Of a stretch of DNA of 57,723 nucleotides, positions 1 to 52,039 are shown piece by piece (the stretch's first letter is position 1; every line of letters begins with the position of its first letter). Position numbers and translations under genes: made by a program. The notes below the pieces were generated by a model. That model had not been told where the DNA came from and made no database searches. It saw only the letters and a list, made by a program, of their open reading frames with translations. This DNA comes from Bacteroidales bacterium (lineage in GTDB: Bacteria; Bacteroidota; Bacteroidia; Bacteroidales; Muribaculaceae), in assembly GCA_020859845.1 (NCBI GenBank), contig JAJBVL010000065.1, positions 14,786 to 72,508 on the forward strand, read 5' to 3'.

Positions 1-105
1 GGTATTACCATCAAAAGCAACCCCGTAGGGGTTGTTTCAAATAGATAGTCGGTATTACCATCAAAAGCAACCCCGTAGGGGTTGTTTCAAATAGATAGTC
101 GGTAT
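1..105. repeat. Two tandem 50-bp units with internal palindrome
   Basis: A 50-bp unit beginning GGTATTACCA is present at 1-50 and 51-100, and a third copy breaks off after five bases. Each unit has a hairpin: CAACCCC, loop GTA, GGGGTTG (18-34 in the first copy). With the central hairpin at 115-149 and the three units at 154-308 it forms one composite element. The same plan recurs near 22990-23121 and 41940-42081, where the arms are single or differently duplicated. The left end may continue outside the window. Confidence 0.9.
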
Positions 106-114
106 AACATAATA

Positions 115-149
115 CCCCAAAAACGGCGCCAACGGCGCCGTTTTTGGGG
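115..149. terminator. Perfect 16-bp hairpin, terminator-like on both strands
   Basis: CCCCAAAAACGGCGCC (115-130) pairs perfectly with 134-149 across a 3-base loop. The arms carry A and T runs, so both strands read as a G+C stem followed by T residues. It lies downstream of the minus-strand transporter gene, beyond the 52-bp repeats, so it could end that transcript. It is also the centre of the composite repeat element. Confidence 0.7.
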
Positions 150-153
150 TTAA

Positions 154-308
154 GGGTGGGGGTAAATGATTTACATCTAATTGGAAGAATCCCTACGGGA
201 TTCGAGGGTGGGGGTAAATGATTTACATCTAATTGGAAGAATCCCTACGGGATTCGAGGGTGGGGGTAAATGATTTACATCTAATTGGAAGAATCCCTAC
301 GGGATTCG
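154..308. repeat. Three tandem 52-bp units with internal palindrome
   Basis: A 52-bp unit starting GGGTGGGGGTAAATG occurs at 154-205, 206-257 and 258-308 with essentially no differences. Each ends in a hairpin, GAATCCC, loop TAC, GGGATTC (187-203 in the first copy). The part before the hairpin (TCTAATTGGAAGA) also occurs, diverged, near 23092-23104 and in reverse orientation near 42022-42031. The third copy ends 27 bp before the stop codon of the transporter. Confidence 0.9.
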
Positions 309-335: not shown

Positions 336-1997
336 CTATACCAAGAAGGCTAATACTAAGCCTTGGGCCGCCACTACGCGTAGGAACATCGTCAACGGAT
401 AGATCGTAGAATATGCCACGGCGGGAGCGTCGCTACCCGTGGAGCCATTGGCGTAGGCCAAGGCTGGGGGATCGGTGTAGCCTCCCGAGAAGAGACCCAT
501 GATGGTGAGGAAATTGATCTTGTAGACGCCACGCGCTATGCATCCCACGATCACCAGAGGGATAAACGTGATGATGAAGCCCCAGAGCACCCACATCATA
601 CCAGTGGAATTGAACACCGTCTCGGCGAAGCCTGCGCCTGAGCTGATGCCCACGGAGGCCAAGAAGAGACAGATGCCCAGCTCGCGCAGCATCATGGATG
701 CGGAGGTGGAGGTGTAGGTGACGAGCTTAAACTTATAGCCGAAGCGGCTCAAGAGGATGGCCACTACCAGAGGACCGCCAGCGAGGCCGAGCTTCATGCC
801 GAAACCTACGTTGATGGAGCCCACGATGATACCAAAGAGGATACCAACGAAGATAGTGATGATATTGGGGTGGTTGAGGCGCTTTACCGAGTTGCCAAGC
901 TTTTCGCTCAGGCGCTCGATGTCGTTGAGGTCGCCAACAACGGTGATGCGGTCGCCCATCTGCAGGCGGAGGCTGGGGGCAGCCAAGAGGTCGATACCAC
1001 CACGATTGACGCGGGTGGCGTTGAGCTTGTAGGCGGTGTGGAGGCGTAGGGAGCCGAGGGTGACACCGTTGAACTCGCTCTTGGTGATGGCGATACGGCG
1101 CGACACCACGTCGACAGGCGAGTTGTTTTCCCAGTCGCGGTCGTTCTTGGGACCTACCACGGCCTCAAAGCGCTCCACATCGTTGGGCGAGATGGCCACA
1201 TATAGCTCGTCGCCCACGCGCAGCTGAGTCTTCGACACAGGGATAATCACATCGGGACTGCCAGCGGCCATCATACGCGAGATGACGAAGTCGCACTGGA
1301 TGATCTTGCAGAGGTCCATCACCGTCTTGCCATTGATCAGAGGATTGGTCACTTCGACCGAGATGAGGTCGGGCTTCATCTGGGAGGCTTCGTTCTCCTC
1401 CTCGATGGCCTTTATCTCGCGGTCGGTCTTGATGCCGAAGAGAGCCTTGATAAGAAACATAGCACCGATGATGCCACACACACCGAGGGGATAAGCGGCG
1501 GCATAGCCCATGGCCATGATGTTGATAGCCTCGGGGGTGTTGGCCGTCTGCTGGGCGGCAGCAAGACCAGGGGTGTTGGTGACGGCACCCGACATGATAC
1601 CCACGAGGGCCTCCATGGGGGCGTCGTTGACGTAATGGATGACAAGGACTATCACCACGTTGAGGGCGATACCCAACACTGCCAAGCCATTAAGACGCAT
1701 ACCTCCCTCCTTGAAAGAAGAGAAGAAAGCCGGACCTACCTGAATACCTATAGCAAAGATAAAGAGGATAAGGCCAAACTCTCGGACAAACTTCAGCACT
1801 TCGCTATTGACAACATAGCCAAAGTGGCCCATCAGGATGCCTACAAACAACACAAACGTGACACCCAGCGACACTCCACCCACCTTGAGTTTGCCGAGAT
1901 AACAGCCTACGGCAATCACAAAGGAATAGAGCACGAGGGTGCTCGCAAGCTGCGTGTGGCCTGGACCAATAAGGTCGATCAACCAGGTGAAATCCAT
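336..1997 (-). CDS. AspT/YidE-family membrane transporter
   Basis: A 553-residue inner-membrane protein with the duplicated design of the aspartate-alanine exchanger (AspT/YidE/YbjL) family. An N-terminal membrane half carries SGAVTNTPGLAAAQQT (near 135-150). Two TrkA-C (RCK_C) domains follow at about 213-280 and 295-371. A C-terminal membrane half carries the matching SGGYTDPPALAYANG motif. AspT swaps aspartate for alanine, but YidE-like members have no firm substrate, so none is assigned. Length is normal for the family. It is transcribed away from the BamA-like gene, from its own promoter about 60 nt upstream, and ends next to the repeat element at 154-308. Confidence 0.85.
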   Translation of the reverse strand: MDFTWLIDLIGPGHTQLASTLVLYSFVIAVGCYLGKLKVGGVSLGVTFVLFVGILMGHFGYVVNSEVLKFVREFGLILFIFAIGIQVGPAFFSSFKEGGMRLNGLAVLGIALNVVIVLVIHYVNDAPMEALVGIMSGAVTNTPGLAAAQQTANTPEAINIMAMGYAAAYPLGVCGIIGAMFLIKALFGIKTDREIKAIEEENEASQMKPDLISVEVTNPLINGKTVMDLCKIIQCDFVISRMMAAGSPDVIIPVSKTQLRVGDELYVAISPNDVERFEAVVGPKNDRDWENNSPVDVVSRRIAITKSEFNGVTLGSLRLHTAYKLNATRVNRGGIDLLAAPSLRLQMGDRITVVGDLNDIERLSEKLGNSVKRLNHPNIITIFVGILFGIIVGSINVGFGMKLGLAGGPLVVAILLSRFGYKFKLVTYTSTSASMMLRELGICLFLASVGISSGAGFAETVFNSTGMMWVLWGFIITFIPLVIVGCIARGVYKINFLTIMGLFSGGYTDPPALAYANGSTGSDAPAVAYSTIYPLTMFLRVVAAQGLVLAFLV

Positions 1998-2158: not shown

Positions 2159-4501
2159 ATGGTTCTTTGTCGATATATACCCCACGTGATGATGGTCTCA
2201 CTGCTTGCTCTGGCTGTGGGGTGTAGCTCCACAAAGCATGTGGCCGAGGGCGAATACCTCGTGGATCATGTCGACATTGAGATACAAGATAGCAGCACCG
2301 AGGTGAAGAGCCTCGACCTCGTAAACTACCTCCGACAGACACCCAACCACAAGGTGCTCGGCTTCCTGAAACTGCAACTCAACACCTACAACCTCTCGGG
2401 CGACGACACCTCGAAATGGTACAACCGATGGCTGCGGCGACTGGGACAGCCCCCAGTAATCTTCGACCCCAACCTCACCGACGCTTCTCGCCGACAGCTG
2501 CAACTGGCTCTGGTCAACAAAGGCTATCTTGGCGCCCAAGTGAAGGTGGACACTATATTTAAGGAGGGGGAGAAGAAGGTGGATGTGGCTTATGAGGTGG
2601 TGACTGGCACGCCCCACTACATACGCTCGCTTTCCTACACCATCCCCGACACGGCAATAGCCGCAATAGTACTACCCGACACCATCCATACTCTCCTGAA
2701 GCCCGGAGGCCTCTTTGACCGCAACAACCTCGACATGGAGCGCACACGCATCACCGAGCGACTGCGCAACCACGGCTACTATGCATTCTCGAAGGAGTAT
2801 ATCACCTTCTATGCCGACACGGCCGAGGGGTCGTATGCCGTCGACTTGGAGATGATGGTCCACGCCCCATTCGTGGGCGGGCAGCCGCTGCCCGACAGCG
2901 TGCCTCACCCTCAATATATGATACGCAAGGTGTGGTTTCTGACCAACTATCAGCCGGGAGCCACGCCCGACGAGCAGCGCGCGCTGTCGCGCGACACGGT
3001 GGACTATCGCGATGTGGAGGTGGTGTATGGCGACGACCACTATATCAAGGCGTCGGTGCTCGAGAAGAAATGCTTTATACGCCCGGGCGAGATGTATCGC
3101 GCCAAGGAGGTGGATCGCACCTACGAAGCCTTGGCCCAACTCGGCATCTTGCGCTCGATAAATATAGAGATGGTGCCGGTGGCCACGGTGGGGGGCGAGG
3201 AATGGCTCGACGCGTATATCTACCTGACGCGCAACAAGAAGCAGGGTATCACAGTGGAACTGGAAGGCACCAACTCGGAGGGCGACCTCGGATATGGTAT
3301 AGGCCTTACGTATCAGCACCGCAACCTGCGCCATCAGAGCGACCTCTTCACTGGCAAACTGAGAATGAACTATGAGAGCCTTTCGGGCAACTTCTCGGGC
3401 TTGGTCAACAATCGCTACTCGGAGTATGCCGCCGAGGCGGGGATAACGTTCCCAAAGTTTAAGTTCCCCTTCCTGAAGCGCTTGTTTAAGGATAGGGTGA
3501 AGGCGGTGTCGGAGGCTACGGTGTCGTTCAACTACCAGGAGCGACCGGAGTATACGCGTATCATTGCTGGCGCGGCGTGGAAGTATCGCTGGACCACGCG
3601 CAACAATATGGAACGCCGCACATTTGACCTGCTGGACATCAACTATGTCTATCTCCCCGAAAGCACTATCGACTTTATCAATCAGATAGCACCCACCAAC
3701 CCACTGCTGCGCTATAGCTACGAGGACCACTTCATAATGCGCAGCGGATATACCTTCTATCGCACCAATAGGCGCGTGGCCTCGGCGGCCATTCGCCGCT
3801 ACATCCTCCAGAAGACGGTGTATAGCCTACGCGCCTCGGGAGAGACGGCCGGCAACCTGCTCTATGCCCTGTCGGCTCTCACGGGACAGCATCGTAGGGA
3901 TGGGGTCTACAAGGTGTTTGGGATCCAGTATTCCCAGTATGCCAAGGCTGAAATCGACTACTCGTCGGTGAGAAACTACGACGAGCGCCACTCGCTGGCG
4001 TGGCATGTGGGGGCGGGTATCGGGGTGCCTTACGGCAACTCCCACGTGCTGCCTTTCGAGAAGCGCTTCTATGCTGGAGGGGCCAACGGAGTGAGGGGCT
4101 GGGGTGTGCGCACCCTGGGGCCTGGTAGCTACGACGCCCGCAACTCGGTGACCGACTTTATCAACCAGTGTGGCGACATACGCCTCGACTTGAACGTGGA
4201 GTATCGCATGAAGCTTTTCTGGGTGTTTGAAGGAGGAGCATTTGTCGACGCGGGCAATATATGGACCATACACAACTATGAGAACCAGCCTGGAGGCATG
4301 TTTCACTTCGATACGTTTTGGAAGCAGATAGCTCTTGCCTATGGCGTGGGACTGAGAATGGACTTTGAATACTTCTTGCTGAGGTTTGACCTCGGTATGA
4401 AGGCCCACAATCCAGCTCAGAATCAAGAGCATTGGCCCATCATACACCCTCGCTGGGGACGCGATGCCACATTCCACTTCTCGGTGGGGTATCCGTTTTA
4501 A
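2159..4501 (+). CDS. BamA/TamA-family outer-membrane assembly protein
   Basis: A 780-residue Omp85-family protein. The N-terminus is a lipoprotein-type signal ending LAVGC, so it may be both lipid-anchored and a beta-barrel. POTRA-like repeats follow (about 40-400). The 16-strand barrel then occupies the C-terminal half. The loop-6 motif appears as GGANGVRGWG (VRGY/F in BamA), and the protein ends in Phe (SVGYPF), the usual outer-membrane beta-signal. Members insert or translocate outer-membrane proteins. It is probably not the main BamA but the TamA-like paralogue common in Bacteroidetes. The start at 2159 gives the signal peptide a positive charge; the ATG at 2189 would leave it too short. 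Confidence 0.85.
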   Translation: MVLCRYIPHVMMVSLLALAVGCSSTKHVAEGEYLVDHVDIEIQDSSTEVKSLDLVNYLRQTPNHKVLGFLKLQLNTYNLSGDDTSKWYNRWLRRLGQPPVIFDPNLTDASRRQLQLALVNKGYLGAQVKVDTIFKEGEKKVDVAYEVVTGTPHYIRSLSYTIPDTAIAAIVLPDTIHTLLKPGGLFDRNNLDMERTRITERLRNHGYYAFSKEYITFYADTAEGSYAVDLEMMVHAPFVGGQPLPDSVPHPQYMIRKVWFLTNYQPGATPDEQRALSRDTVDYRDVEVVYGDDHYIKASVLEKKCFIRPGEMYRAKEVDRTYEALAQLGILRSINIEMVPVATVGGEEWLDAYIYLTRNKKQGITVELEGTNSEGDLGYGIGLTYQHRNLRHQSDLFTGKLRMNYESLSGNFSGLVNNRYSEYAAEAGITFPKFKFPFLKRLFKDRVKAVSEATVSFNYQERPEYTRIIAGAAWKYRWTTRNNMERRTFDLLDINYVYLPESTIDFINQIAPTNPLLRYSYEDHFIMRSGYTFYRTNRRVASAAIRRYILQKTVYSLRASGETAGNLLYALSALTGQHRRDGVYKVFGIQYSQYAKAEIDYSSVRNYDERHSLAWHVGAGIGVPYGNSHVLPFEKRFYAGGANGVRGWGVRTLGPGSYDARNSVTDFINQCGDIRLDLNVEYRMKLFWVFEGGAFVDAGNIWTIHNYENQPGGMFHFDTFWKQIALAYGVGLRMDFEYFLLRFDLGMKAHNPAQNQEHWPIIHPRWGRDATFHFSVGYPF

Positions 4502-4567
4502 GGCAAAAGGCAAGAGTCAAAAGTCAAAAGGCAAAAGTCAAAAGGCAAGAGTCAAAAGTCAAAAGGC
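4501..4567. repeat. 7-bp tandem repeat (AAAAGTC/AAAAGGC), about 9 units
   Basis: Units AAAAGGC, AAGAGTC and AAAAGTC alternate, starting on the last base of the TAA of the preceding gene. The same family occurs at 15442-15555, 18474-18561, 27685-27752 (degenerate), inside a gene at 29217-29292, and inverted at 51938-52036. Confidence 0.9.
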
Positions 4568-4577
4568 TAATCCCTCG

Positions 4578-4721
4578 CTGCGGTAGCTTTCGCAGTGCAG
4601 CGGCCTCCGCTGCTCTTTTTGAGCCAGCCCTCTGGCTCTCCCCAGGTGATGCCTTTAAATCGCGGCGGAGGCCGCCGCTTAAAGAGCAGCGGAGGCCGCT
4701 GCACTGCGAAAGCTACCGCAG
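4578..4721. repeat. Perfect 41-bp inverted repeat with nested hairpins
   Basis: The 41 bases at 4578-4618 are the exact reverse complement of 4681-4721, 62 bp apart. Two more perfect stems lie in the spacer: GAGCCAG/CTGGCTC near 4621-4638, and a GCGGCGG/CCGCCGC palindrome near 4662-4678. It sits between two plus-strand genes. No reading frame or transposase ends are evident. It could be a strong terminator or processing structure, or a non-autonomous repeat. Confidence 0.9.
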
Positions 4722-4776
4722 AGGGGGTAGTTAATAGTTAGTTTAACGTTAATGTGACGATAGAATTTAAGGAATT

Positions 4777-5439
4777 ATGAAGAAATTAGTAATATTTGAT
4801 TTGGATGGTACGCTACTCAACACCATCGACGACCTGGGCCACGCTACCAACTATGCTTTGGAGAAGTGTGGCTTCAAACCTCATCCCATGTCGGCTTATC
4901 CTTTCATGGTGGGCAATGGGGTGAAACGCTTGATTGAGCGCGCTCTCCCCGAGGAAGAACGCATCCCCGAACGCATCGAGGAACTGCGCACCCACTTTGT
5001 GGAGTATTACGGCCAGCATCTGACCGACTTCACCGAGCCTTATCCGGGCATCAAGAGTCTGCTCATCGATCTGCGGTCGGAGGGTATACAGGTGGCAGTG
5101 GCCAGCAATAAGTATCAATCGGCGGTGGAGGAACTCATCCACCACTTCTTTGGCGACATCGACTGGGCGGCCATCGAGGGACAGAGAGACGATTACCCGG
5201 TGAAACCCGACCCTTCGATAGTGTTTAGAATACTCGGCGAGTGTCCTACACCGAAAGCGGAGGTGCTGTATGTGGGCGACTCGGGGGTGGATATGGAGAC
5301 CGCGCGCAGAGCCTGCGTCGACTCTGTGGGCGTCACGTGGGGCTTTCGCCCAATAAAAGAGCTGCAAGAGAGCCATGCCGACACGCTGGTCCACAACGCC
5401 GAAGAGATCTTGGCGATAGCCAAACGCCCAGGTCTATAA
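4777..5439 (+). CDS. HAD-superfamily phosphatase, phosphoglycolate phosphatase-like
   Basis: A 220-residue soluble phosphatase of the Gph/PGP type. Motif I is FDLDGTLLNT, with nucleophile Asp8 and acid/base Asp10. Motif II is the VASN region near 110, and the motif III lysine lies in VKPDPS. Motif IV is GDSGVDMETA. The cap domain sits between motifs I and II. The likely substrate is 2-phosphoglycolate or a similar small phosphate ester; sequence alone does not decide. The gene stands alone behind the inverted repeat and ends 13 bp from the convergent yigZ-like gene. Confidence 0.85.
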   Translation: MKKLVIFDLDGTLLNTIDDLGHATNYALEKCGFKPHPMSAYPFMVGNGVKRLIERALPEEERIPERIEELRTHFVEYYGQHLTDFTEPYPGIKSLLIDLRSEGIQVAVASNKYQSAVEELIHHFFGDIDWAAIEGQRDDYPVKPDPSIVFRILGECPTPKAEVLYVGDSGVDMETARRACVDSVGVTWGFRPIKELQESHADTLVHNAEEILAIAKRPGL

Positions 5440-5452
5440 GAGCATCGCTCAC

Positions 5453-6049
5453 TTAATCGGCCATTTGGGCTCCGCAGCTCTCGAGCTTGGCGCGGAGAGC
5501 ATCGGCGCGGTCGGCGCGGATGGTGAGGGTCATGGAGCAAAGATTGTCGAAGGCTTGGGCCACGATCTTCACATCGGGACTTTTTACGGCCTTCATCACG
5601 TCGTTCATGGCAAGGTAAGGGAAGGAGAAGGTCAGGGTGGCCATCTCGTAGGCAGTAATAATCTGGGCAGCGGCAATGGCCTCGCGAGCGGCTTCGCGGT
5701 AGGCCACGATGAGGCCCGACGTGCCCAACTTGATGCCCCCGAAATACCTCACAACGCAAATCACCACGTTGGTGAGCCCCGCCGACCGTATCTGGCCGAG
5801 GATGGGCTTGCCGGCGGTGCCGCTGGGCTCGCCATTGTCGCTTGACAGCCACTCCTTGCCCTCGGCACCTATCATGTAGGCCCAGCACACATGGCGCGCG
5901 TCGTGGTATTGATTGGCCACACGCGCTATCACCTCCTTGGCCTCGGCGGCTGAGGCCACCGGGAAGGCCAGGGAGATAAAACGGCTCATCTTCTCGCGAT
6001 AAATGCCCTCAGCAGGGGCTGCGATGGTGTGGTATTCGGCTACGGCCAC
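5453..6049 (-). CDS. YigZ/IMPACT-family protein
   Basis: A 198-residue YigZ-family protein with the UPF0029/IMPACT signature around DNGEPSGTAGKPIL and YFGGIKLGTSGL. The family shares a ribosome-related fold with eukaryotic IMPACT, but its bacterial function is unsettled. The start is GTG at 6049; its G is the last base of the TAG of the upstream queA gene (TAGTG), which implies translational coupling. It is the last gene of the ftsX-to-yigZ cluster and meets the HAD phosphatase tail to tail. Confidence 0.85.
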   Translation of the reverse strand: MAVAEYHTIAAPAEGIYREKMSRFISLAFPVASAAEAKEVIARVANQYHDARHVCWAYMIGAEGKEWLSSDNGEPSGTAGKPILGQIRSAGLTNVVICVVRYFGGIKLGTSGLIVAYREAAREAIAAAQIITAYEMATLTFSFPYLAMNDVMKAVKSPDVKIVAQAFDNLCSMTLTIRADRADALRAKLESCGAQMAD

Positions 6050-15441: not shown

Positions 15442-15555
15442 TAAGTCAAGAGTCAAGAGTCAAAAGTCAAGAGTCAAGAGTCAAGAGTCAAAAGTCAAGA
15501 GTCAAGAGTCAAAAGTCAAGAGTCAAAAGTCAAAAGTCAAAGGGGCAAAGGGGTG
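15442..15555. repeat. 7-bp tandem repeat (AAGAGTC/AAAAGTC), about 14 units
   Basis: AAGAGTC and AAAAGTC units run from just upstream of the exbD ATG (15436) almost to the exbB stop (15561), ending in two AAAGGGG units. This is the longest copy of the family in the window. It lies inside an operon, so a change in copy number would alter the distance between two coupled genes. Confidence 0.92.
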
Positions 15556-17598: not shown

Positions 17599-18474
17599 AT
17601 GATGAAGATTGCTGTCTATGGCAATAGCTTTCAGGACGCTTCAGTGCAGTATGTCGACCAGTTGCTGAGGCTCCTGTGCGAGCACCCTGGCGTGGAGGTG
17701 GCTATCGACCCCGACTATCTGGCGTATCTCTCGGAGCGGCTCGCTCATGAGCCTCTCATCAGTCATATTATAGGGCGCTATGGCTATGAAGCCGACTTGG
17801 CATTGAGCATCGGTGGCGATGGCACGTTTCTCTCCACGGTAAGGAAAATAGGGCCTTCCGAGACTCCCATCATGGGGCTTAATTCGGGGCGACTGGGCTA
17901 CCTGTCGGCAGCGAGAATAAGCCAGGTGCATCAAGTGGCCCATCTCATCCTCTCGCGGCAATATGCTGTTGAGCCTCGCTCGATGCTGCAAGCCACTGTC
18001 ACCTCGCGCTGGGAATATGCTCCTCAAATGGCGCTCAACGATGTGGCTATCCTAAAGCAGGACACGGCTTCGATGATTACGGTCAACGTCTATGTGGGGG
18101 GAGAATTGCTGGCAAAGTATCTCGGCGATGGATTGATAGTGTCGACCCCAACGGGGAGCACAGGCTACAATCTCTCAGTGGGGGGGCCTATAGTGGCTCC
18201 TTCGTCGCCGTCGTGGGTGTTGTCGCCGGTGGCAGCTCATTCGCTAAATATGAGGCCGCTGGTGGTGAGCGATGCCACGCAGATGGATATCGAGGTGGTG
18301 TCGAGGACGCATACCGCTCTCATCAGCGTCGATGGCCAGTCGATGACCCTCCCCGACGATGCACGGCTCCATCTGGAGCGTGCGCCTTACGTCACCAATG
18401 TGGTGCATGTACCGGGCCACAGCTTTATCCACACTCTGCGCGAAAAACTGATGTGGGGAGTGGATAGTAGATAA
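17599..18474 (+). CDS. nadK: NAD kinase
   Basis: A 291-residue NAD kinase that phosphorylates NAD to NADP. The GGDGT motif is at 72-76 with catalytic Asp74. The substrate block LIVSTPTGSTGYNLSVGGPI and the C-terminal SVDGQ segment are present. Either of the first two adjacent ATGs could be the start. It follows the CBS-family remnant by 45 bp and diverges from pdxJ. A 7-bp repeat begins at the last base of its stop codon. Confidence 0.94.
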   Translation: MMKIAVYGNSFQDASVQYVDQLLRLLCEHPGVEVAIDPDYLAYLSERLAHEPLISHIIGRYGYEADLALSIGGDGTFLSTVRKIGPSETPIMGLNSGRLGYLSAARISQVHQVAHLILSRQYAVEPRSMLQATVTSRWEYAPQMALNDVAILKQDTASMITVNVYVGGELLAKYLGDGLIVSTPTGSTGYNLSVGGPIVAPSSPSWVLSPVAAHSLNMRPLVVSDATQMDIEVVSRTHTALISVDGQSMTLPDDARLHLERAPYVTNVVHVPGHSFIHTLREKLMWGVDSR

Positions 18475-18561
18475 GGCAAAAGTAAAAAGGCAAAAGGCAA
18501 AAGGCAAAAGTCAAAAGGCAAAAGTAAAAAGTCAAAAGGCAAAAGTAAAAAGTCAAAAGTA
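18474..18561. repeat. 7-bp tandem repeat (AAAAGGC/AAAAGTC), about 12 units
   Basis: Units AAAAGGC, AAAAGTC and AAAAGTA run from the nadK TAA to 9 bp before the next ATG at 18571. They occupy the full intergenic space where a promoter or translation signal would be expected. Confidence 0.9.
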
Positions 18562-22952: not shown

Positions 22953-22988
22953 ACATACAAGAGGGTGGGTCAAAATTGCAATATCTTA

Positions 22989-23121
22989 GCGAATCCCGTA
23001 GGGTATTGATTCTTTCAATTAGGTATCAATAATTTACCCTTCTCTCCAAAAGGCGTCTTTGGCCGTTTTTTGGGGAGAAGGGTACAACTGTATCTAATCG
23101 GAAGAACTCCTACGGAGTTGC
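22989..23121. repeat. Composite three-hairpin element between convergent genes
   Basis: The left arm has AATCCC-GTA-GGGTATT near 22992-23006 followed by TTTCAATTAG. The central stem is ACCCTTCTCTCCAAAA (23036-23051) paired with 23068-23083, with one G-T pair. The right arm has TCTAATCGGAAG followed by AACTCC-TAC-GGAGTT (23105-23119). The order and the conserved segments match the element at 1-308. The central stem, flanked by A/T runs, can act as a bidirectional terminator for the MscS and beta-barrel genes. Confidence 0.75.
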
Positions 23122-41940: not shown

Positions 41941-42081
41941 CCCGTTATCCACCCCGCTACCCCATTGGGGCAGTCATCCATCTCACTACCCCGTATCCAC
42001 CCCGCTACCCCGTAGAGGTAGTTCCAATTAGCATTAGATCGTAAACCTACCCCCTTCCGACGCCCTCGGCGTCGGAAGGGG
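41941..42081. repeat. Composite hairpin element upstream of the leucine operon
   Basis: Two tandem 48-bp units begin at TATCCACCCCGCTACCCC (41946 and 41994). The second contains the palindrome TACC-CCGTAGA-GGTA, followed by TTCCAATTAG (42022-42031) and CTACCCCC. A perfect 14-bp hairpin, CCCCTTCCGACGCC (42051-42064) with 42068-42081, ends it. The order matches the left arm and central hairpin of the element at 1-308. The hairpin, followed by CTGCTTTTGG, can terminate the ECF-locus transcript. Confidence 0.75.
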
Positions 42082-50606: not shown

Positions 50607-51935
50607 ATGATAAAGAAGATACTTCGCCTTGGATTTCCCATCTTGATTGCCCAGCTGGGCATGATAGTGGTGGGGTTTGCCGACACCAAGATGGTGGGCC
50701 TCTACTCCACCGAGGCGTTGGCTTCTGCGTCGTTTGTCAACAATCTCTTCACCACTGCCATCATGGTATGCATGGGCTTTGGATATGGCCTCACGCCGCT
50801 TGTCGGAGCCCTCTTCACTCAGCGTCGTCTCGGCGATATTGGTGGCATGGTGCGCACGGCCCTTATTCTCAACGTGGCTCTTGCGGTGGCTGTGACGCTC
50901 GTCATGGTGGTGGTCTACTTCAACGTGGAACGCATGGGGCAGCCTGAGCAACTCATTCCCCTTATCAAGCCCTATATGCTGCTCTATATCTTAGGTATTC
51001 TACCCATTGCCCTCTTCAATGTCTTTGCCCAGTGGAGCTTTGGCATCACCAATACCAGCCTCCCCATGTGGATCACTCTTGGGGCCAATGCTCTCAATAT
51101 CCTTGGCAACTGGGTGCTTATCTATGGCAACTGGGGCTTTCCTGAGCTGGGGCTTCAAGGCGCCGGCATTTCCACTCTCATCTCGCGCTGGCTGTGTCCG
51201 GTGGTGTTGATTACCATCTTCTTCACCGCAAGGCGCTTTAGGGAGTATAGCCGAGGCTTTGTCCATGGTAGGCTTATGAAGCGACAAGTGGGGCAGATCA
51301 ATCGCACGTCGTGGCCCGTATCTCTTCAGATGTTTTTCGAGACCAGCTGTTTCTCTCTTAGTGGCGTGATGGCTGGCTGGATAGGCGCCATCGAGCTCGC
51401 CTCGTTCCAGATTCTGATGGTGGTGGGCACCATGGGCTTCTGCATATATGCCAGTATGGCCAATGCTGTATCGGTATTGGTGGCTAATGCCGCGGGCCTC
51501 AACGACCAGCGCTTGATGCGCCGCACAGCTTTTACCGGCTATGCCATTATCTTGGTGATGGCCGTCGTGGCTTGTTTCTTCTTCATCTTCTGCGCTAAGC
51601 CCATCATCCATCAGTTCACGGAGGATGAGGCAGTGCTTACCGTGGCCGTTAGTCTGATTATCCCGTTGGCTCTCTATCAGGTGGCTGATGCCACTCAGAT
51701 AACGTTTGCCAACGCCCTGCGAGGCACGGCCAACGTCCTGCCTATGATATGGATTGCCTTTGTGAGCTATGTCATAGTGGGTCTCCCCGTCACGTATATC
51801 ATAGCCTTCCCTTTGGAGATGGGCATCTATGGTATCATCCTTAGTTTTTCAGTATCCCTATTTTTAGCTGCAGTCCTCTTCCTCTATTACTTTATGCGCA
51901 CCACCTCTCGCCCCTTGCTCTCTTCCCCCCACTAA
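50607..51935 (+). CDS. MATE-family efflux transporter
   Basis: A 442-residue membrane protein with about twelve helices, matching MATE exporters that expel cationic or aromatic compounds using Na+ or H+. Visible blocks are FPILIAQLGMIVVGFADTKMVG and FGYGLTPLVGALF in the first half, and the matching ASFQILMVVGTMGFCIYASM in the second. It follows panB by 30 bp and could be co-transcribed. The substrate is unknown. Confidence 0.9.
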   Translation: MIKKILRLGFPILIAQLGMIVVGFADTKMVGLYSTEALASASFVNNLFTTAIMVCMGFGYGLTPLVGALFTQRRLGDIGGMVRTALILNVALAVAVTLVMVVVYFNVERMGQPEQLIPLIKPYMLLYILGILPIALFNVFAQWSFGITNTSLPMWITLGANALNILGNWVLIYGNWGFPELGLQGAGISTLISRWLCPVVLITIFFTARRFREYSRGFVHGRLMKRQVGQINRTSWPVSLQMFFETSCFSLSGVMAGWIGAIELASFQILMVVGTMGFCIYASMANAVSVLVANAAGLNDQRLMRRTAFTGYAIILVMAVVACFFFIFCAKPIIHQFTEDEAVLTVAVSLIIPLALYQVADATQITFANALRGTANVLPMIWIAFVSYVIVGLPVTYIIAFPLEMGIYGIILSFSVSLFLAAVLFLYYFMRTTSRPLLSSPH

Positions 51936-51937
51936 CA

Positions 51938-52036
51938 CTTTTGCCTTTTGCCTTAATACTTTTGCTTTAGTACTTTTGCCTTTTGCCTTAATCCTTTTGA
52001 CTTAACCCTTTTGACTTTTGCCTTAACACTTTTGAC
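51938..52036. repeat. 7-bp tandem repeat (inverted orientation), about 13 units
   Basis: Units CTTTTGC and CTTTTGA with ACTTAATA-type interruptions run between the MATE gene stop (51935) and the convergent DUF4294 gene stop (52040). It is the reverse-complement form of the AAAAGTC/AAAAGGC family. Confidence 0.88.
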
Positions 52037-52039
52037 TTA

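Follow-up and report, generated by a model that had tools for sequence, protein, structure and literature searches.

The closest described systems are the REP, REPIN and BIME repeats with their RAYT (TnpA-REP) transposases, which have in common with the element presented here short extragenic palindromes, inverted pairs with a spacer, and heterodimers. In the available excerpts of two accounts, REPs are reported with stem-loop-bearing spacers and in clusters that are tandemly repeated together with flanking DNA, and two places with evenly spaced single REPs are described in P. fluorescens SBW25 (PMC3116915, PMC3733652). Tagged REP repeats are, according to an excerpt, found mainly in Proteobacteria (PMC3733652). 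In Bacteroidetes, the excerpted description of TnpA-Y1 subclass 2.6 mentions "atypical secondary structures" and no GT[AG]G (PMC6006769), while the BrickBuilt MITEs of Porphyromonas gingivalis are named in an excerpt of PMC5771137.

The window is defined as the whole stretch of 57,723 nt analysed, which lies on contig C68 of a Muribaculaceae genome. Its positions 1-308 hold a composite element whose arms are 26-nt units, each made of a foot, CTAWTTGRAA, and a hairpin, AAYCCC-TAC-GGGRTT; the arms are of C-type or T-type. The features of this element, its right neighbour and the further copies in the window are as follows.

1-18, minus strand: linker on the outer side of the window's first left arm, running left into a 100-N gap
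19-44, minus strand: left arm 1, C-type, with its hairpin at 19-33 and the foot ending at 44, arm pattern with 0 mismatches
45-68, minus strand: left inter-arm linker, 24 nt
69-94, minus strand: left arm 2, C-type, arm pattern with 0 mismatches
95-113, unstranded: C-side inner flank, resembling by eye the inner flank of copies C35 and C86
114-150, unstranded: central terminator-like hairpin, 17-bp perfect stem with A-run and T-run; minus strand in the terminator scan; helix 3 covaries in the 13-copy alignment
151-176, plus strand: T-side inner flank, from terminator foot to CTA, copied into the right linkers (0.92 identity)
177-202, plus strand: right arm 1, T-type, arm pattern with 0 mismatches
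203-228, plus strand: right linker, 26 nt
229-254, plus strand: right arm 2, T-type, arm pattern with 0 mismatches
255-280, plus strand: right linker, 26 nt
281-306, plus strand: right arm 3, T-type, arm pattern with 0 mismatches
336-1997, minus strand: right neighbour, AspT/YidE-type transporter gene (PF06826, TIGR01625, NF003007), 3' end facing the element
22961-22980 (C68:37746-37765), plus strand: second-copy outer-stem motif with 2 mismatches
22991-23022, minus strand: T-type left arm belonging to the second copy, with 5 nt inserted in its hairpin; boundaries placed by eye
23035-23084, unstranded: second-copy central hairpin (arms of 17 nt with 94% complementarity)
23094-23119, plus strand: right arm of the second copy, arm pattern with 3 mismatches
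42006-42031, minus strand: third copy, one-armed, followed by a GC-rich hairpin at about 42051-42081 (by eye)

Tandem Repeats Finder identified a period of 50 with 2.1 copies at 1-105 and a period of 52 with 3.0 copies at 153-308, both at 100%, and the units were identical within each set. The central inverted repeat was perfect over 17 bp (114-130 with 134-150, 3-nt loop). These results bear out the original prediction of two 50-bp units, a hairpin and three 52-bp units, except that the stem, given as 16 bp, measured 17 bp. The arms had further been read as diverged inverted forms of one unit, and this reading held: they display a common foot and hairpins differing by paired changes, and a 28-nt comparison of left and right arms showed 82% complementarity. 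The second copy, expected to carry one arm per side, was located at 22988-23121 in the same order, with the 5-nt insertion in its left-arm hairpin. The fold of 1-308 reached -135.1 kcal/mol on the plus strand (z -11.9 versus shuffles) and -109 on the minus strand (z -8.2 versus shuffles). The arm pattern matched seven times in the window and 0 times in 100 shuffles, and the Rfam search of the window at gathering scores gave nothing at the element, its sole match being a tRNA. Arrays of a 7-nt unit (AAGGCAA/AAGTCAA) were also observed in the window, at 4500-4567, 15444-15540, 18473-18560 and 51933-52039.

Base 1 of the window is directly preceded by a run of 100 N, upstream of which stand two further left-type arms (C68:14605 and C68:14655). 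The element therefore extends past the window, and the left arms seen within it are a partial count. A second array, on C2, is likewise interrupted by exactly 100 N, so the length of such a gap is probably a placeholder.

The 26-nt pattern, allowing up to 3 mismatches, had 104 matches in the 2.9-Mb genome, 55 on the forward and 49 on the reverse strand, and the reversed pattern had none there. A weight matrix trained on those sites found 104 non-overlapping arms in stretches totalling 184,452 bases, with 0 for the reversed control. The arms group into 49 loci and comprise 57 of C-type, 43 of T-type and four mixed. When 74 distinct arms were aligned, 95.2% of the stem cells were paired and five of the seven pairs had changed on both sides; the covariation score was reached by 0 of 500 shuffles, a comparison that carries the tool's warning that related sequences can exceed shuffles. 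As with REP and REPIN sequences, the arms are palindromes within the 20-40 nt range present in many extragenic copies. The foot CTAWTTGRAA stands where a GT[AG]G tetranucleotide or a CGTC tag was looked for, and neither was found at the hairpin foot in the 74 aligned arms. At C30:708, C53:911, C65:1734 and C86:62554, an arm was nested within another repeat with GCTG...AGCAGC-like ends and a GC-rich hairpin.

Fourteen loci presented two arms with the hairpins outward, 63-85 nt apart with a central hairpin between them, which was mostly long and terminator-like, those of C24 and C61 being weak. Opposed arms were of unlike type (C/T) in 17 of 20 typed pairs (binomial p 0.001; a 21st pair with a mixed arm was set aside), and tandem neighbours were of like type in 27 of 31 cases. 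The foot base W agreed between opposed arms in 13 of 17 (p 0.057), an agreement on which no weight is placed; the feet of the window's own opposed pair differ at one base (T versus A). The two-arm alignment included 13 of the 14 copies, C61 with its two C arms being omitted; 94.5% of its cells were paired, and both-side changes occurred in 16 of 36 pairs against a shuffled mean of 6.1, the central stem by itself accounting for 8 of 10 pairs. The two-arm copies thus resemble REPINs as inverted pairs with a spacer that are able to fold together. By eye, several of them also have flank sequence in common beyond the hairpins, and the genome holds ten AACGGCGCC hairpins, seven with an adjoining arm and three without. 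A covariance-model search had been proposed with the original prediction; the model built from the 13 copies gave at least 70 matches among the 150 of 668 own-genome candidates scored, counting the training loci and both strands of the near-symmetric element, and matches fell at loci outside the training set. In the 33 congeners, the model matched none of the 97 candidates scored per genome.

The element lies between converging genes, namely a thioredoxin gene on its left (PF00085, TIGR01068) and the transporter gene on its right. The outermost arms start 17 nt from the stop codon on the thioredoxin side and end 30 nt from that on the transporter side, and the gap between the genes is ∼530 nt, including the 100 N. 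The nearest relatives of the transporter are ∼80% identical, in records mostly named Paramuribaculum, Muribaculaceae, Porphyromonadaceae or Bacteroides sp., which would place the host near Muribaculaceae. Examination of 24 of 80 transporter-relative loci at the transporter 3' end revealed a convergent transporter/thioredoxin pair at most 300 nt apart in 11, the arrangement not being kept in that form in 13. In those 11 loci, the 77-160 nt between the genes contain no arms and form folds that surpass those of shuffled sequence (z -3.0 to -6.6). Within the own genome, 14 of the 49 arm loci lie between convergent genes, 22 between co-oriented and three between divergent ones, with ten lacking a resolved gene pair. 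With a home-made gene caller, the convergent context was found in 14 of 39 resolved loci compared with 5 of 50 gene pairs in the window (Fisher p 0.004), and none of the 49 loci lay inside a called gene, while several overlapped a called gene end.

The terminator scan called the central hairpin (150-114) on the minus strand only; on the plus strand, a five-T run after the inner GC stem was counted as part of the long stem (by eye). Two left-arm hairpins were also called on the minus strand, and the scan gave five sites in 2 kb versus 1.8 in shuffles. The central hairpin of the window copy is a probable intrinsic terminator. Given the fact that the copy fills the convergent gap and holds the longest hairpin between the genes, both transcripts probably end there.

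The arm pattern was absent from the 33 congeners. Across 297 family genomes, own included, three were positive: the own genome and two genomes, G230 and G237, both of one other genus that is represented by 38 genomes among those listed. They contain 122 arms in 4.5 Mb and 49 arms in 4.1 Mb, respectively, versus 104 in 2.9 Mb in the own genome. A species-specific family is ruled out by these arms, and a patchy spread over 3 of 297 genomes and two genera is most simply read as horizontal transfer. The original prediction was to fall if copies existed only here, without structure-preserving relatives; instead, the 104 genomic arms were accompanied by the same plan in the two other-genus genomes.

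In 334,435 bases around the G230 and G237 arms, a looser pattern identified 47 arms, with a tandem step of 49-53 nt in 18 of 19 cases, the miss being a partial arm in L287 at a distance of 22 nt from the next arm. Another portion of G230, amounting to 627,311 bases, held 16 arms with a step of 48-52 nt in 7 of 7. The other-genus arms end in GGGGTA and are nearly all C-type (by eye), C/T heterodimers not being evident among them. Two of their five opposed pairs were of the arm-hairpin-arm kind, 107 and 110 nt apart, with GC-rich hairpins of 9 and 19 pairs. CTTTTGA repeats, of the kind seen in the 7-nt arrays, directly adjoin family arms in both genomes (L282, L293). A pattern scan of an 84,980-species collection gave no match with a pattern that required the final TT and is blind to GGGGTA-ending arms. 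There was likewise no match in a phage search with 1-308, in viral contigs with two patterns, or in a plasmid search with an array from the other genus. In 758,486 bases from relatives, no tandem palindromic arrays were found save a 149-nt array by a Y1 gene in L196. This array (2192-2905, genus relative G002) repeats a 149-nt unit 4.9 times with GTAG-like feet and is of REPIN type.

Of 31 same-strand neighbours in the own genome, 28 had a spacing of 49-52 nt and the remaining three one of 30, 67 and 77 nt. For the three genomes together, the step was 48-53 nt in 53 of 57 tandem neighbours, which were counted within 80 nt in the own genome or 150 nt in the other genus, so that pairs across N gaps are omitted. 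The own-genome linker tests used 23 of the 31 linkers, after three of odd length and five duplicates or near-duplicates were left out. Linkers were 0.89 identical within one array (5 pairs) and 0.31 identical between loci (373 pairs), against 0.27 when shuffled; one linker was common to a few loci (C45 and two at C78). On the arm strand, 19 of 23 linkers of the own genome and 16 of 18 of the other genus contained more G than C. Support for palindromic linkers was weak, with z between -1.4 and -3.4 depending on set and strand, and the description is untrue of some linkers.

At the window, the right linker is 0.92 identical to the inner flank from terminator foot to arm and the left linker 0.79 identical to its own inner flank, which suggests that the copied unit extends between successive hairpin feet. 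An identity of 0.70 or more between linker and a neighbouring flank was observed in 7 of 25 arrays (C2 6997, C2 7249, C56 23249, C68 14804, C68 14962, C71 9143 and C86 34082, the last with a 4-nt linker), and the others clearly match neither flank. Foot-to-foot copying is therefore best seen at the window and may not be general.

Two Y1 genes were identified in the own genome, which is 97.9% complete. One is of IS200/IS605 type (59 bits, cut-off 55), and the other weakly resembles the REP-associated type (54 bits, under the cut-off of 80). Each is flanked by its own hairpin repeats, and neither of the two is flanked by arms. A Y1 search of 961,746 bases from G230 and G237 likewise found no Y1 gene flanked by arms; it gave one clear Y1 gene with its own repeats and two weak matches (E 0.002 and 0.004) with no arms in the same stretch. 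The repeats of the IS200-like gene occur at 16 places by one pattern, some of them as arm-hairpin-arm, the same plan as the 1-308 family. At L045 (C38:34704-35033), this gene is flanked by GAGCCCC-nnn-GGGGC arms around a CCCCGGGTGACC hairpin, and L045-type copies stand ∼77 nt apart at C38:34252-35240, a stretch that also contains an N gap. Family arms start 35, 50 or 83 nt from these repeats at C5, C33 and C65. Hairpins with a TAC/GTA loop adjoin two of the 30 Y1 loci scanned (L190, L193) as well as the Y1 gene of L299 in G237, which lies at 4540-5500 between repeated units that include GTGCGTAGCAC and CCCCACAT hairpins. Half-arms, GAATCCCGTAGGGCCTCCCATGCAGCC, were also seen repeated at ∼36-37 nt steps near L045-type repeats in L064 (C65:43806-44085).

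On the observed dispersal, structure, heterodimers, constant step and intergenic position of the arms, we read the element, with a probability of about 0.6, as a non-autonomous dispersed palindromic repeat that is REPIN-like in its working, probably moved by a Y1 transposase, and that carries a terminator between converging genes. Two inverted arms, each a short foot and a hairpin, with the hairpins outward, would enclose a spacer that is the probable intrinsic terminator. A Y1 (HUH) transposase of the IS200/IS605 or TnpA-REP kind would recognise the single-stranded hairpin arms and spread copies. Local copying from a hairpin foot to the next foot may then add arm-plus-linker units, which would yield a constant step of ∼50 nt while the inner terminator stays single. 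That the arms are copied in tandem around a single hairpin, as originally predicted, agrees with the loci listed in the genome, where one central hairpin is present in each.

Another reading is possible, if rather unlikely. Here, a length-measuring amplification process would add ∼50-nt arm units beside existing arms in at least two genera, with the step and not the sequence being inherited, and native terminators between convergent genes would have given way to these portable ones. The unit in this reading consists of the 26-nt arm and a G-rich, weakly self-pairing linker of 23-27 nt.

It is unlikely that the element is a MITE in which the outer repeats GAGGCTGTGTCAAAATTGCA ... TGCAATTTTGACACAGCCTC serve as terminal inverted repeats for a DDE transposase, with the arms being internal. 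The outer motif lies within 60 nt of 13 of 71 outermost arms (up to 6 substitutions; reversed motif 0 of 71), at a distance of exactly 10 nt for 10 of these, and is able to form a stem with the matching motif on the opposite side; simpler copies consisting of outer repeats and one hairpin occur at C4:19055, C17:15980 and C36:41800. However, by the same test the motif is missing at 58 of the 71 outermost arms, and the 10 of 18 motif places inspected, with about 170 nt on either side, lay in short palindromes or coding-like DNA, none of them in an evident IS end. Target-site duplication was not evident by eye in the flanks inspected, for which there was no closely related empty site for comparison. 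A similar stem without arms was found in 7 of 34 genus genomes (own included) and 0 of 27 others, so the outer stem may be a plain terminator.

We consider it quite unlikely that the copies are immobile, that is, terminators or 3'-end structures under selection that were spread by gene conversion and duplication only. Such selection would accord with the excess of loci between convergent genes, and with central hairpins that vary in sequence yet keep pairing in most two-arm copies, weakly so at C24 and C61. Nevertheless, near-consensus arms at 49 own loci together with their absence from 33 congeners point to recent spread, and the occurrence of 122 and 49 arms in the two other-genus genomes and the flank shared beyond the hairpins by several two-arm copies (by eye) also argue against immobility.

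Passive replication slippage or assembly inflation of the arrays of a real family, with no set step, is very unlikely. The near-identity of linkers within an array (0.89, 5 pairs) and the N runs present in arrays on C68, on C2 and, for another family, on C38 speak in its favour. In opposition to this, the step of 48-53 nt in 53 of 57 neighbours across three genomes is combined with between-locus linkers whose identity barely exceeds that of shuffled ones (0.31 versus 0.27), and a common step with unlike linkers argues against slippage alone, which predicts no shared step. A CRISPR-like repeat-spacer array, suggested by the 26-nt repeat, the spacers of mostly 23-27 nt and the constant period, is scarcely credible, as the spacers within an array are near-copies (0.89) rather than unique, the arrays have 2-4 units, and opposite-strand units meet in one array.

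The original prediction knew of no named family of this design. That view needs qualifying, since excerpts of PMC3733652 and PMC3116915 report REP dimers whose spacers are structured, as well as tandem REPs at even spacing; it stands in so far as the portions of the literature searched contained no name or description of this palindromic repeat family. No mention was found of the outer repeat searched as letters, and the same portions held no description of a constant step shared by many loci across two genera despite unrelated linkers. A dense, untagged Muribaculaceae family whose core resembles a terminator and whose arms multiply at the same step in two genera, with unrelated linkers, offers a clean test of hairpin-repeat amplification, and suggests that mobile elements can carry terminators that replace native ones.

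BrickBuilt elements are Bacteroidales intergenic repeats with internal tandem copies, a likeness to the present family that is by description only. BOX of Streptococcus pneumoniae is, in the excerpted account, also a modular intergenic repeat with one module expanded in tandem and the rest single; by that description, however, boxB is repeated centrally between single ends, whereas in the present family repetition affects the outer arms and leaves a single centre (PMC3049150). The boxA-(boxB)n-boxC order with its central repeated module is thus not that of this family. SPRITE of S. pneumoniae is, in the same excerpts, a dispersed terminator-like repeat enriched near gene 3' ends, but consists of one duplex with a U-rich tract and no arms (PMC3049150). 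TnpA-Y1 subclass 2.6, compared by its excerpted description, has in common the phylum, hairpins without GT[AG]G and copies elsewhere in the genome (PMC6006769), although no such gene flanks arms here. As this subclass also lacks GT[AG]G in that excerpt, the missing foot excludes the canonical REP/REPIN kind only. Given the absence of a GTAG/CGTC tag and of a cognate transposase among those found, we do not claim REP/REPIN membership, and the likeness is one of apparent working. In contrast to REP/REPIN, the family presented here is without the GTAG/CGTC foot and without a cognate RAYT found in its own genome, its spacer is a terminator-like hairpin, and it keeps one step of ∼50 nt at many loci in two genera with unrelated linkers.
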